Shown one piece after another: positions 1,387 to 6,843 of a stretch of DNA of 7,186 nucleotides. Each line of letters begins with the position of its first letter. Position 1 is the stretch's first letter. A program made the translations under genes and the position numbers. Below the pieces are notes generated by a model that saw only the letters and a list, made by a program, of their open reading frames with translations, ran no database searches and was not told where the DNA came from. The DNA comes from an uncultured Candidatus Saccharibacteria bacterium (GTDB lineage Bacteria > Patescibacteria > Saccharimonadia > Saccharimonadales > UBA10212), in the NCBI GenBank assembly GCA_946478715.1, contig CAMLDA010000031.1, positions 1 to 7,186 on the forward strand, written 5' to 3'.

Positions 1387-3183
1387 ATGTTCTGGTTTGT
1401 ACACGCGCTCGTCCTGTCGCTGGTCATGGTCGGTCCCGCCACTGCGGTGGCAGCGATCGGCACATCCTTCAAGTCGGTGGAGCGCACCTTGCTCGCCGGC
1501 GTCGGGATGTTCGTCTTCTGGACGTTCATGAACTGGTGGATCCTGTACGTCATGGCGCCGATCGTGGGCTTCACGTCCACGTCGTTCTACCAGTCGTACG
1601 GGCTGTACTTCCTCGAGCTGATCGTCACCGCGATCGTGCTCGGGATGGCGTCCTACAACGACGAGAAGGATTTCGTCAGCGTCGGCACGGTCATCAACGC
1701 GCTCGTCCTGGTCTGCCTGGTCGTCTTTGGCCTCTTCTGGGGTACGGGCGGCCGCATCTGGACCAGCGGGCGGGCGCACACGCTGCGTGACCTCGTGACG
1801 GTCAAGTTCGAGAAGCCGGGCGCCTATCCCGACACCGACCCGAACCACATCCTGATGGTGTCGGAACAGATGGCGGACTTCAAGGCGAGCACCGTGCTCG
1901 CCAGCAACACGCAGCGCAACGTCGGGACCTACTTCAAGCTCGGCTCCGGCGTGCTGCAGTCGGTCGACCACCACCTCTACTGGCTCTATCTGCTCAAGCC
2001 CAACAGCTGGCGGCAGGCGGGCAAGTTCCACGGCCACTCGATCGGCTACGTGGTCGTCGACGCCGAGGACCCCGACGTCCCTGCCCGGCTGAAGCTGGGG
2101 TACGAGATGCGGTTCTTCCCCGGTGGGTTCTACGACCACAGCATCGGCCGTCACCTGTACAAGAACGGCTACGCCGGCGCCAAGGTGACGGACATCACGC
2201 TCGAAGTCGACGACAGCTGGCGCCCGTACTTCACGGCCGCGTCCGACAGGCTGACGCTGAACTTCAAGCGGATGGTCCCCGGGGCAATGCTGCTCATCGA
2301 CCCGCAGACCGGAGCGATCAAGAAGTACTCGCTCCACGACATTCCCTCCTGGGTGGATCGGGTCTACTCGGCGGGAACGGTCAAGCAGATGCTGAACTGG
2401 TGGGGCGAGTGGGCCCAAGCCAAGCACAGCTTCTGGAACGAGAGCAGCGGCAATCGCTACAAGGTCAATCGCGACCCGGTGCTGGTCTACACGAAGGAAG
2501 GCCACCCAGTGTGGCAGGCGATCATGACCAGCTGGAACCACAGCAACGCAGCGGCCTACCTGGCGCTGTTCGACGCCCGGGACAACTCGGCCCGCCTCTA
2601 CCAGGTTCAAAACCTGACCCTGGAGAACACGGCCGAGCAGACGATCCTGGGCTCGGGCAACAACGTCAAGCGGCTGGAGCCGGTCCATCTGAGCCTGCAC
2701 AAGATCTACGGGCAGCTCACCTGGGTGGCACCGCTGCTGGCGCCCGGCGGTTCCACGAGCGACTCGGTCCATACCGGGGCGTTCCAAGGCCTGGCCCTCA
2801 TGCGTGCCGATGACCCGAACGGCAACAACGTGGTCTTCGCCACGAACAAGGACGACGCCCTCAGCAACTACCTGCAGAAGCTCGCGGCGGGCGACCGCAA
2901 CGTCGCCAACCCGGAGCAGAACAGCAACATCAAGGTGGTCCAGGGGGTCGTGGAGAGGGTCGGCCTGCCGATCGTCCAGAACGGTCAGACCGTGATCAGC
3001 TTCATCCTCACGGGTGACCCGAACCACGAGTACCAGGAGGCGCTGACGGCTGACAGCAGCCCTGACCTGAAGTACATCACGGCAGGGGCCAAGGTGCGCT
3101 TCACGTTCGTCGACGTCGGCAGCAGCGGTCCCGAGCGGACCGTCAGCAACTTCGACGATCTCAGTCTCCACCTCGGCAAGTAG
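1387..3183 (+). CDS. Four-helix membrane protein with large extracytoplasmic part, unknown function
   Basis: The product has 598 residues. I chose the ATG at 1387 over the in-frame start 99 bases upstream because AGGAG (1375-1379) precedes it by 7 bases and the hydrophobic helix then begins at once; the upstream extension is Ser/Arg-rich and overlaps the previous gene. Four hydrophobic helices lie near residues 3-24, 35-60, 70-89 and 98-119. About 475 residues follow, probably outside the cell, rich in Trp, Tyr and Asn (for example SWVDRVYSAGTVKQMLNWWG around 320-340). The last 85 residues or so (from about 512) show an alternating beta pattern that resembles an OB-fold, but this is only a visual impression. 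No transport, enzyme or conjugation motif is recognised. It ends TAG TAA. I saw no in-frame ATA codon and third positions are strongly G/C, unlike the MFS and hydrolase genes downstream, which suggests horizontal acquisition. Confidence 0.88.
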   Translation: MFWFVHALVLSLVMVGPATAVAAIGTSFKSVERTLLAGVGMFVFWTFMNWWILYVMAPIVGFTSTSFYQSYGLYFLELIVTAIVLGMASYNDEKDFVSVGTVINALVLVCLVVFGLFWGTGGRIWTSGRAHTLRDLVTVKFEKPGAYPDTDPNHILMVSEQMADFKASTVLASNTQRNVGTYFKLGSGVLQSVDHHLYWLYLLKPNSWRQAGKFHGHSIGYVVVDAEDPDVPARLKLGYEMRFFPGGFYDHSIGRHLYKNGYAGAKVTDITLEVDDSWRPYFTAASDRLTLNFKRMVPGAMLLIDPQTGAIKKYSLHDIPSWVDRVYSAGTVKQMLNWWGEWAQAKHSFWNESSGNRYKVNRDPVLVYTKEGHPVWQAIMTSWNHSNAAAYLALFDARDNSARLYQVQNLTLENTAEQTILGSGNNVKRLEPVHLSLHKIYGQLTWVAPLLAPGGSTSDSVHTGAFQGLALMRADDPNGNNVVFATNKDDALSNYLQKLAAGDRNVANPEQNSNIKVVQGVVERVGLPIVQNGQTVISFILTGDPNHEYQEALTADSSPDLKYITAGAKVRFTFVDVGSSGPERTVSNFDDLSLHLGK

Positions 3184-3234
3184 TAACACATGGCAGTAAC
3201 CTGCCCCGCTTAACTGAGCCGGTCAGTCAGTAAT

Positions 3235-3311
3235 CCTCGCAAGAGGTCGGCGTTGAGAGCCTCGCCCCCAGTCATGGCAGCATGGCGTTCAGGGGCGGGC
3301 GCTCTCCGCCG
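3235..3311 (+). other. 3' UTR hairpins: GNRA-capped stem and a 19-bp bulged hairpin
   Basis: CCTC 3235-3238 pairs with GAGG 3243-3246 across a GCAA (GNRA) tetraloop. Next is a large hairpin: C3248-G3252 pairs with C3307-G3311; after a TT bulge, 3255-3268 pairs with 3292-3306 with one bulged C (3300) and one T-G pair. The 23-base apical part holds the self-complementary CATG 3273-3276 and 3281-3284. No T-tract follows, so it is not a normal intrinsic terminator. Its base abuts the first nucleotide of the hammerhead (3312), so the helices could stack. It may protect the operon's message from 3' exonucleases after cleavage. Confidence 0.6.
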
Positions 3312-3366
3312 GTAGTTTCCACGAATGTGTGTTCGTGCTGATGAGCCCGAAAGGGCGAAAAACTAC
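3312..3366 (+). ncRNA. Type III hammerhead self-cleaving ribozyme
   Basis: Every universal hammerhead element is present. Stem III: GTAGTTT 3312-3318 pairs with AAACTAC 3360-3366. Cleavage site: C17 is C3319 after U16.1 (T3318), an NUH triplet UUC, so the cut falls between 3319 and 3320. Stem I: CACGAA 3320-3325 pairs with TTCGTG 3332-3337, loop TGTGTG. Core CUGAUGA: 3338-3344. Stem II: GCCC 3345-3348 pairs with GGGC 3353-3356, GAAA loop. Core GAA: 3357-3359, with A15.1 at 3360 pairing with U16.1. Stems I and II are closed by loops and stem III is open, which defines type III. The ribozyme follows the membrane operon and ends 9 bases before the stop of the convergent hydrolase gene. Known hammerheads of this type occur in bacterial and phage genomes and in circular RNA replicons. 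Confidence 0.93.
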
Positions 3367-3375
3367 AGATTTACA

Positions 3376-4842
3376 TCAAGCCGCCCGCGGCAGCGCGTCT
3401 TCCCGGATGTATTCAATAGGCGTATGGGCGGCAGCGCCGAAAACATGGCCGCGGGTACGGTGCATCCTTTGCCCTATCCCGGTAACCGGATTATGGTGTT
3501 CGGCGTAGTCCCCGGTTATATCTACCACCGCCAGATTGCTTTCGTGTATTCCCTGAAGCTGGCCGGTAAGTTCCTGCCGTATAGCTGGCAGGAGCACGCC
3601 GTCACGAGACAGCTGGCGGCTTATGCCTCTCATCACGATAACGTCCGCCACAGGCCATTTGGGGCCCCGCCAATGCCGGTCGTACTCTTCGTAGTGCGGA
3701 TCGTAGACATCCCTATTATCGGTCGCTACGCTTGGCAGAGGATAATCAGGGCTGAACCCTTCATTAATCAGAGTCACCAGCGAATGCAGCTGAGACACCG
3801 GCAGGCTGCCATCCAGTAACGGGGTGAGATTGCCAATAGTGTCCTTAAGCTGCGGCTTGCCGTTATAAGTCGAATAAAAAGCTCCCTTGCCGCCGCGGGC
3901 TTCCGGGAAATAGTGCCTAAGCATCGCCTCTCCCAGCCTGCCTGCCGTCTGTCTATAGCGATCAGCGTCTTCTTCGCGGCCCACCCTGCTGGATAATTCG
4001 CCCATAGCCAGGTAGTTCTCGCGCAGCAGATAATTGAACCAGACATCTATAAACTCGGTATTCTCATGGACCCTTTCCGGCTTCCAGCCGGCCTTATATC
4101 CCGCAAGGTTGATCGCCAGGGCGCCGGCGTAATCAATCGCCCGGTTGCGTTTATTGAACAGGCTTCCCATATGTTCGCCCCGGCGCGGCTTCCGCCGCAG
4201 CAGAGAGGCCGCCAGTTTCCCGAATTGCCTTTGCAGCTCCTCTGTCTTCCATTCATCGTATTCAGGGCCGGAGTCGCGATTGGCTTCGTGGGGATGCAGC
4301 AAAAACACCCGCGGATCGTCCTCGGCCACCTGGCGGTGGCCCATGAGGTGGTCGTAGTAACCCTGTACTACAGGATATATCTGTGCCAGGAACTTATCCG
4401 GGTCTATTGCTTGGGCGGGTGAAACCGGCGGCCTTGAGCTTGCTCTGTCATGCAGCTTCAGGACGCTATAGGCGATTATTGGGGTCTGGGTATAATCATT
4501 TCCCTCGAAAGGGCTGGTGGACAGGAGGCGCTCGGGGTTTATGGTAAAGCGCTTAGGGGGATGCTTGACGCCGGTAATGAACCCGTCAGCCCTTTGATAA
4601 TCGCAAAAGGACAGTAGCTGGGCGGCCGACTTCCGGTAGTATCCATATGCGGTCCGTAAATCAGCCGCCACGCAGCCGTCCATGATGTAATTCGAATGAT
4701 AAAACTTCTCTGCCGGGGGATGGTATGGCGCTTGGTCCACCCCCAGCCGGGCGGCTAGCGCGGCTTCGCTAGCGTCAAGCTGGGCCATAGGATGAGGGCG
4801 GCCGGCATACCGGGCCGCATCAAGGCTATACGGCAGTTCCAT
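3376..4842 (-). CDS. GH63/MGH1-like glycoside hydrolase
   Basis: The 488-aa product has the hallmarks of clan GH-G-type (alpha/alpha)6-barrel hydrolases of the GH63 and mannosylglycerate-hydrolase group. RDSGPEYDEW (189-198) corresponds to the family's D-N/G-S-P motif, with D190 the likely general acid. The stretch PLLDGSLP (341-348), then DNRDVYDPHY (375-384) and WRGPKWPV (391-398) follow the family order. YAEHHNPVTGIG (446-457) corresponds to the E-x-x-N-P-x-T-G motif, with E448 the likely general base. Residues 47-65, including D55, replace the usual W-D substrate-binding motif. There is no signal peptide, so it should act in the cytoplasm on an alpha-linked sugar such as a glucoside, oligosaccharide or mannosylglycerate-like solute; the substrate cannot be told from sequence. 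The length is usual for the family. It is divergent from the MFS gene, with a 97-base gap. No strong Shine-Dalgarno precedes the ATG; a TAATAC (complement of 4852-4857) 9 bases upstream could be a weak -10. Confidence 0.88.
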   Translation of the reverse strand: MELPYSLDAARYAGRPHPMAQLDASEAALAARLGVDQAPYHPPAEKFYHSNYIMDGCVAADLRTAYGYYRKSAAQLLSFCDYQRADGFITGVKHPPKRFTINPERLLSTSPFEGNDYTQTPIIAYSVLKLHDRASSRPPVSPAQAIDPDKFLAQIYPVVQGYYDHLMGHRQVAEDDPRVFLLHPHEANRDSGPEYDEWKTEELQRQFGKLAASLLRRKPRRGEHMGSLFNKRNRAIDYAGALAINLAGYKAGWKPERVHENTEFIDVWFNYLLRENYLAMGELSSRVGREEDADRYRQTAGRLGEAMLRHYFPEARGGKGAFYSTYNGKPQLKDTIGNLTPLLDGSLPVSQLHSLVTLINEGFSPDYPLPSVATDNRDVYDPHYEEYDRHWRGPKWPVADVIVMRGISRQLSRDGVLLPAIRQELTGQLQGIHESNLAVVDITGDYAEHHNPVTGIGQRMHRTRGHVFGAAAHTPIEYIREDALPRAA

Positions 4843-6418: not shown

Positions 6419-6504
6419 AATTCATACGCCAGCCCGGTTAATAATCTTATAGCCGGTTTATCTCATATGGGTTAAGGTGGTAATGCTAAAGAAGTGGAGG
6501 TTTT

Positions 6505-6684
6505 ATGGCAGCAAGATCCAGCAGCCCAAGGGGCTTCGCGGCCATGTCTAAGGAGCAGGCCGATAGAATCCGCAGTTTAGGCGGTAAAAAAAGCCCGATG
6601 AAATTCAAGAAGAATGACGCCCGCACCCGCGCCGCGGGCCGGCTTGGTGGCAGCCGTTCCCGCCGCCCCGCCAGCGACGACTGA
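6505..6684 (+). CDS. KGG-repeat small stress-type protein
   Basis: The 59-aa product is very basic. It follows the pattern of the KGG / stress-induced family (YciG/GsiB-like): RGFAAM (9-14), the typical R-G-F-A-x-M opening; then EQADRIRSLGGKKS (17-30), repeat one; FKKNDARTRAAGRLGG (34-49), repeat two; then a basic tail. Such proteins are small, hydrophilic and probably disordered; in other bacteria they are induced by stress, and their molecular role is not settled. The start is firm: GGAGG (6496-6500) lies 4 bases before the ATG. A clear intrinsic terminator follows the stop by 6 bases, so this is a single-gene unit or the end of a short one. The 86 bases upstream contain no promoter I would call. 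Confidence 0.85.
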   Translation: MAARSSSPRGFAAMSKEQADRIRSLGGKKSPMKFKKNDARTRAAGRLGGSRSRRPASDD

Positions 6685-6768: not shown

Positions 6769-6843
6769 GGCCCCATCGTCTAGCGGTTAGGACACTGGGT
6801 TCTCATCCCAGCAACAGGGGTTCGATTCCCCTTGGGGTCACCA
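6769..6843 (+). tRNA. tRNA-Glu (anticodon CTC), CCA encoded
   Basis: The full cloverleaf is visible. The acceptor stem is GGCCCCA 6769-6775 with TGGGGTC 6833-6839, then A73 and an encoded CCA (6841-6843). The anticodon stem CTGGG/CCCAG flanks loop TTCTCAT, with anticodon CTC reading GAG codons. The T-arm is AGGGG-TTCGATT-CCCCT (to 6832). The D-arm holds AGCGGTTAGGAC. The length of 75 nt includes CCA. The convergent gene downstream ends 11 bases away, and no terminator is seen in between. Confidence 0.97.

Follow-up and report, generated by a model that had tools for sequence, protein, structure and literature searches.

The presence of a hammerhead ribozyme motif behind a bacterial gene raises the question of what such an RNA might do there, whether for that gene, for a mobile or phage-derived element, or for nothing at all. 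In the window, as we call the whole 7,186-nt stretch of DNA that was analysed, the motif occupies positions 3312-3366 and starts 128 nt after the stop codon of an open reading frame, ORF2; its bacterial setting, assigned in the original prediction, is borne out by ORF2, which shares 99% identity with a protein that carries the label 'Candidatus Saccharimonadales bacterium', so that the window stems from such a metagenome-assembled genome or from a very close one. The motif, the hairpin in front of it, its position, its covariation and its recurrence in related genomes were computed, and we propose, with a probability of roughly 0.6, that the ribozyme generates the 3' end of the mRNA of ORF1 and ORF2, leaving it with a hairpin and, at its very end, a 2',3'-cyclic phosphate.

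Anatomy of the hammerhead

The elements of the motif are as follows, those without other support being placed by anatomy.

3312-3366, + strand: type III hammerhead ribozyme (RF00008, 43.0 bits; leave-one-out model R2, 74.4 bits; anatomy)
3312-3318, + strand: stem III, 5' strand
3319, + strand: C17
3320-3325/3332-3337, + strand: stem I, 6 pairs
3338-3344, + strand: core CTGATGA
3345-3348/3353-3356, + strand: stem II, 4 pairs
3349-3352, + strand: stem II loop GAAA
3357-3359, + strand: core GAA
3360-3366, + strand: stem III, 3' strand (stem III has 7 pairs)

Each element of the complete type III core and stems that had been predicted for this site was found where it had been placed. The CUGANGA...GAA core, the NUH cleavage triplet and A15.1-U16.1 are all present (U3318, C3319, A3360), the predicted cut falls at 3319|3320, and the three stems include an open stem III, in which both the 5' and the 3' ends of the hammerhead lie. 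The unconstrained minimum-energy fold of 3184-3375 includes the entire hammerhead. The covariance search with Rfam, which had been suggested as a check, gave a divided answer: RF00008 (Hammerhead_3) matched exactly 3312-3366 over model positions 1-54 of 54, with an E-value of 5.3e-7, but the 43.0 bits remained under the curated gathering score of 48.5, which is a search cut-off and no defining part of a hammerhead. Our own covariance model, R2, made from 65 relatives chosen because their stem and loop lengths equal those of the window motif, itself left out, scored the window at 74.4 bits, with an E-value of 2.5e-22 that is rough since the calibration was short.

A strict motif parser, which asks for the core letters together with no fewer than 4 pairs in stem I, 3 in stem II and 4 in stem III, recovered 37 of 44 Rfam-found motifs. 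Applied to the window, it returned one motif. From 300 dinucleotide-shuffled copies of the window, read on both strands, and from 1.24 Mb of loci shuffled once by mononucleotide, it returned none, and a chance origin is thus very unlikely, as had been argued from the letters alone. Neither Rfam nor the parser found a second hammerhead in the window.

Genes of the window and the 3'UTR hairpin

The motif lies between two genes on the + strand and a convergent gene.

656-684, + strand: promoter-like site TTGACT-17-TATAAT before ORF1 (consensus scan, 11/12 matches)
849-1376, + strand: ORF1, 175 aa, with an N-terminal hydrophobic stretch (by eye), GC3 0.86
1387-3183, + strand: ORF2, 598 aa, the gene preceding the hairpin-hammerhead module, GC3 0.925
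3248-3311, + strand: stable 3'UTR RNA hairpin whose 3' end abuts stem III (minimum-energy fold of 3184-3375)
3376-4842, - strand: convergent gene, MGH1-like glycoside hydrolase (Pfam PF22422, E 3.8e-29)

Promoter-like sites numbered eight in the window, with 3.1 expected, and such a match does not indicate use; a candidate structured leader at 692-848 was not significant (z -1.37). No Pfam family exceeded the cut-off for ORF1 or ORF2. At E <= 0.001, 104 proteins matched ORF2, its own near-copy included, and the named sources of this family, which has no Pfam name, include Saccharimonadales, Ktedonobacterales and Paceibacterota. An AF2 model of ORF2 (mean pLDDT 82.3) has helices at the N-terminus followed by a beta-rich part, and a PDB search with it gave no convincing fold match, the TM-scores being 0.05-0.25 among the 50 matches listed. 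Weak tblastn matches to ORF2 in six plasmid records were uninformative on function. A gene pair resembling ORF1-ORF2 (by eye) is present in locus L313, and the ORF1-like gene there (69-1379) has a segment apparently repeated around a stretch of N.

The hairpin in front of the hammerhead is stable by comparison with shuffles: the 110 nt of the window that end at the cut site gave a z of -5.1 with 30 shuffles and of -4.38 with 200, none of which was as stable. With a same-strand gene upstream whose stop lies within about 150 nt, and a stable hairpin before stem III, the window thus has the arrangement that we call the module. No terminator-like site was found on the + strand of the window from ORF2 to 3375. 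The convergent gene, which is not part of the module, has its 3' end 9 nt past the hammerhead, and read-through past the hammerhead would enter it. The GC3 of the next two genes is 0.64 (the convergent gene) and 0.69, compared with 0.925 for ORF2. Farther along, a small protein encoded at 6505-6684, KGG-like by eye, has a weak PHROG match (E 0.0029), and its gene is followed by a tRNA-Glu(CTC) gene at 6769.

Recurrence in related genomes

As a guide to the host class, an MFS protein matched in 40 of 239 genomes and was not selective. The phylum to which G003 (Patescibacteria group bacterium) belongs was surveyed in 379 genomes, of which RF00008 matched 30 at E <= 0.01, one of them over the cut-off. 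Four of these 30, G308 included, carry a 16S probe site of Saccharibacteria, and for this reason the class of G308, which we sampled further, is probably Saccharimonadia; the label is inferred, and the probe site did not show in the class genomes G038, G186, G300 and G324, perhaps because these have no assembled 16S gene. In this class, RF00008 matched 77 of 392 genomes at E <= 0.01, three of them over the cut-off, and R2, at E <= 1e-4, matched 101 of 392 and left the other 291 without a match, a single genome having as many as 14; most rows of R2 came from the same genomes and R2 tolerates a changed core letter, so that these counts describe the sample rather than provide an independent test and include copies that may not cut. 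From the loci fetched for most of the RF00008 matches of both surveys (most of the weaker class matches being left out), 134 distinct motifs were parsed. The window motif is part of a recurrent module, a long hairpin followed by a type III hammerhead, in related genomes.

Evidence that the structure is maintained came from the 66 motifs that have the stem and loop lengths of the window motif. In this set 93.7% of cells were paired, and kept pairs with both sides changed amounted to 355 cells, compared with 98.6 in shuffles (0/500 as high), the opposite of the uncompensated breaks in stems I-III by which the original prediction might have been refuted. The covariation score was 0.809, compared with 0.224 for shuffled sets (0/500 as high) and 0.087-0.132 once the partners had been slid. 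A double change occurred at least once in 15/17 pairs, a count not above that of shuffles (13.9; 136/500 as high). The parser demands pairs, and covariation as measured here accordingly leans to structure, but compensatory changes are not demanded. In all 66 motifs T is the first letter of loop I and A the last of loop II, conserved letters as would fit a loop-loop contact.

Not every copy is intact. In genome G541, the region L325:3680-6474 holds an array of four hairpin repeats, comprising one with an intact hammerhead, two with a single core letter changed and one hairpin without a hammerhead; R2 still scores the two broken-core copies. These changed or missing cores are evidence against activity at every copy, and broken cores beside kept hairpins speak for a hairpin partly independent of the hammerhead. 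Three of the four hairpins lack an intact core, so that of the two halves the hairpin may matter more.

Position of the module and its hairpin

Thirteen of the 134 motifs overlapped a crude ORF call and were set aside, leaving 121 for position counts, which rest on crude ORF calls and on loci some of which are related to one another. The upstream gene was on the same strand in 95 motifs and on the opposite strand in 26, and the stop codon of the same-strand gene lay 25-133 nt ahead of the motif in 75 of the 95. Downstream, 66 genes were on the same strand and 54 on the opposite strand, with none in one case.

A stable hairpin is the usual partner. Over 133 motifs, z averaged -4.05 for the 110 nt up to the cut site (under -2 in 107 motifs and under -3 in 91), and the MFE averaged -40.1 kcal/mol, compared with -26.1 kcal/mol for the 110 nt downstream. 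When the 110 nt after the stop codon were folded, the mean z was -3.26 for 72 tagged genes, by which we mean genes upstream of a module (39/72 below -3), and -1.17 for 150 randomly drawn other genes (27/150 below -3). Stems of at least six weighted pairs whose end lies 0-3 nt ahead of stem III occurred in 20/134 motifs, compared with 1.6 in shuffles, and the main hairpin ended within -12 to +10 nt of stem III in 96/133 (72%), compared with 66% for shuffled sequences, a placement that is only weakly special.

Sequestration of stem III by the hairpin was considered as a general rule and rejected, average pairing at that place being equal to that of shuffles. It is a trait of a subgroup: the 5' strand of stem III is mostly paired upstream in 36/133 motifs, and in 19 sequences with a shared flank (within 2 edits) the hairpin stem continues into the stem III 5' strand. 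When 13 of these 19, picked by eye, were aligned and folded, 9 of 29 hairpin pairs were kept with both sides changed. The idea that the module simply replaces missing terminators was not supported, terminator-like sites not being depleted after tagged genes (27/92, with 6.3 expected from shuffles, and 140/677 after other genes). In L139 and L161, the letters directly behind the hammerhead resemble TTGACA/TANAAT, as though the following promoter began at this point (by eye).

Genes that carry the module

The original prediction had linked the motif to a membrane-protein operon, and this link to ORF2 is not supported: among the window and 44 other loci with ORF2-family relatives, a hammerhead occurs in the window alone, none being present in the fetched flanks of the 44, some of which (e.g. 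L003, L014 and L017) stop at or soon after the gene and make the test blunt there. RF00008 was found in none of seven genomes with ORF2-relative loci and, among Ktedonobacteria, in which ORF2 relatives are present, in 0/47 genomes, while Rfam at the gathering score returned one tRNA and nothing more from 12 of 27 ORF2-relative genome loci.

Genes tagged by the module have in common their composition. Their GC content exceeded that of the other genes in 58/61 loci (Wilcoxon p 7e-11, loci taken as independent). When 92 upstream proteins were compared, 76 had no relative among the rest (E <= 1e-4) and 16 fell into seven clusters. Pfam assigned 21 families to 80 of the 92, each in one or two members, and PHROGs gave 41 families for the same 80, with one or two members each among the 25 listed; the PHROGs matches include adenylosuccinate synthetase, helicase, endolysin and tape-measure proteins. 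Since the tagged genes are GC-rich and mostly unrelated, and since relatives of ORF2 lack the motif in the fetched flanks, the tail accompanies a kind of gene rather than one gene.

Alternative explanations

The hairpin-hammerhead might be the tail of a mobile, cassette-like gene unit, the hairpin acting as a recombination site or the ribozyme aiding spread, with mRNA trimming secondary. Such a unit would fit the diversity of the genes (76/92 upstream proteins unlinked), their GC richness for the locus (58/61; in the window, a GC3 of 0.925 compared with 0.64-0.69) and the copies in series on one contig, the tail being a repeat of about 150 bp in G541. It would also fit a 1967-nt block, 84.7% identical, that is shared by L131 and L145 from two genomes and that starts 265 nt upstream of a glycosyltransferase-like gene and reaches the hammerhead (block end 6533, hammerhead 6483-6537), with no other match in the fetched flanks. 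Yet several of the 15 locus pairs compared stay similar past the hammerhead (e.g. L076/L084, L076/L092, L073/L088, L089/L093, L077/L157 and L058/L059, the last pair from one genome), while in L081/L124 the similarity stops at the hammerhead except for one further 36-nt match. No conserved core site was seen by eye after the hammerhead, no empty site was seen among six genomes of one genus around G541, and no integron integrase exceeded the cut-off in any of the 12 multi-copy genomes, on which ground an integron is rejected; sub-threshold integrase matches were also present in 14/14 controls. On balance we consider a mobile unit of this kind unlikely. Less likely again is a phage-derived element, in which the tail would have come with (pro)phage genes and would cut polycistronic phage RNA into single-gene messages, as in the processing that Perreault et al. 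(2011, PMC3088659) proposed, according to the retrieved text, for clustered prophage hammerheads. The hammerhead core pattern is common in viral contigs (at least 120 stretches), 80 viral loci listed gave 28 distinct type III motifs, 23 of which have a same-strand upstream gene, often about 30 nt off, and PHROGs families occur among the 80 upstream proteins, endolysin and tape-measure included. The viral hairpins are weaker, however (mean z -2.4; 16/28 below -2 and 7/28 below -3), the window-like stem-loop I pattern had no match in viral contigs, the 3'UTR of the window matched nothing in the phage collection at the DNA level, ORF2 matched three phage records at only about 22%, and PHROGs gave nothing for ORF1 or ORF2.

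As observations on the viral contigs themselves, two or three type III hammerheads follow one another in each of L204, L236 and L254, every one of them with a gene on the same strand 8-55 nt ahead of it, and L248:1892-6178 has five matches to the hammerhead-core pattern within 4.3 kb of a 92.7-kb contig.

Two further readings concern the RNA itself. That the motif is an inactive relic or a chance assembly is very improbable: copies with changed or absent cores do lie beside an intact one in G541, but the window core is complete, 300 shuffles gave no parse, and both the covariation (0.809 compared with 0.224 shuffled) and the leave-one-out score of 74.4 bits point the other way. The least probable reading, to which we give hardly any weight, is a maker of circular RNA, in which two hammerheads in direct orientation would excise a unit that is then ligated into a circle; same-strand copies do occur in series in other genomes, but the window has a single hammerhead, not the two direct ones by which retrozymes are recognised, and RtcB was not found in 12/12 multi-copy genomes.

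A proposed model for mRNA 3'-end formation

The reading that we prefer is the formation of the mRNA 3' end by the ribozyme. RNA polymerase would pass the hairpin and then the hammerhead, which would fold and cut after C3319, leaving an mRNA with the hairpin 3248-3311 and an 8-nt tail (3312-3319) that ends in a 2',3'-cyclic phosphate, such an end being a property of the hammerhead reaction. This new end may be a poor start for 3' exonucleases and would be shielded by the hairpin, whereas the 3' piece would begin with a 5'-OH and be detached, which would also limit antisense read-through into 3376-4842. The GC-rich accessory genes that carry the module may then be helped by a protected 3' end. 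From cleavage in the cell onward, through the cyclic phosphate and the protective end to the benefit for these genes, we infer the path from the computed features. RtcB, which could rejoin hammerhead-cleaved ends, was found in 9/14 controls and in none of the 12 multi-copy genomes, and its missing matches in those 12 are consistent with cut ends staying open. Against this reading count the 26 of 121 motifs whose upstream gene is on the opposite strand, the undepleted terminator-like sites behind tagged genes, the only weakly special end of the main hairpin, the hairpins without an intact core in G541 and the 291 of 392 class genomes that R2 did not match.

A broader version, offered tentatively and at well below even odds, is that ultra-small bacteria carry mobile, GC-rich transcription units with a hairpin-hammerhead as 3' boundary, in which the ribozyme would both make the message end and mark the unit, so that accessory genes would bring with them an mRNA 3' end independent of the host. 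In the one subgroup in which the 3' arm of the hairpin is the 5' strand of stem III, cutting would zip the end into the hairpin and become irreversible.

Taken as a set, these hammerheads tend to lie behind a gene, usually have a hairpin as partner and go with genes of one consistent kind (GC-rich for their locus, mostly without known family), and for this reason a function in mRNA 3'-end formation is open to a reporter test. If the proposal is true, a ribozyme shares in the routine maturation of messages in a widespread group of small-genome bacteria.

Comparison with known systems

The window motif resembles RF00008 Hammerhead_3 in its core letters, three stems, open stem III and full-length match but scores below the gathering score, which 3/392 class genomes pass, compared with 101/392 that match the model made here. 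The hammerheads of plant satellite RNAs are also type III, with a similar loop I and a tetraloop on stem II, and process rolling-circle multimers; the window differs in that its 3'UTR hammerhead is encoded in DNA and occurs once. Integron gene cassettes consist of assorted genes followed by similar structured attC tails, sometimes in series, whereas the tail described here carries a ribozyme core and no integrase exceeded the cut-off (12 genomes).

PMC searches found no paper on hammerheads together with Saccharibacteria, Patescibacteria, Candidate Phyla Radiation or integrons, nor on Saccharibacteria with noncoding RNA and ribozyme, an absence that is weak in both cases since subscription journals lie mostly outside PMC. 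The closest precedent is the report of Perreault et al. (2011, PMC3088659), in which, by the text retrieved, clustered hammerheads surround changing prophage genes and are proposed to process long transcripts; the likeness lies in hammerheads flanking changing genes and in the idea of transcript processing. The hammerheads of that report are of all three types, many of them near integrase genes; TM7 has 0 occurrences in its main text, and the retrieved parts mention neither this group of bacteria nor a hairpin ahead of the ribozyme. A 2017 review (PMC6155905), in the part retrieved, calls the role of bacterial hammerheads an open question and describes them as close together, flanking small non-conserved ORFs, with many tied to phages. 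Bacterial hammerheads, their prophage clusters and the idea of transcript cutting were therefore known beforehand, at least from the retrieved text of PMC3088659; new, as far as the PMC searches reach, are how often the motif occurs in the sampled class, the hairpin that usually goes with it and the GC-rich genes that it follows.
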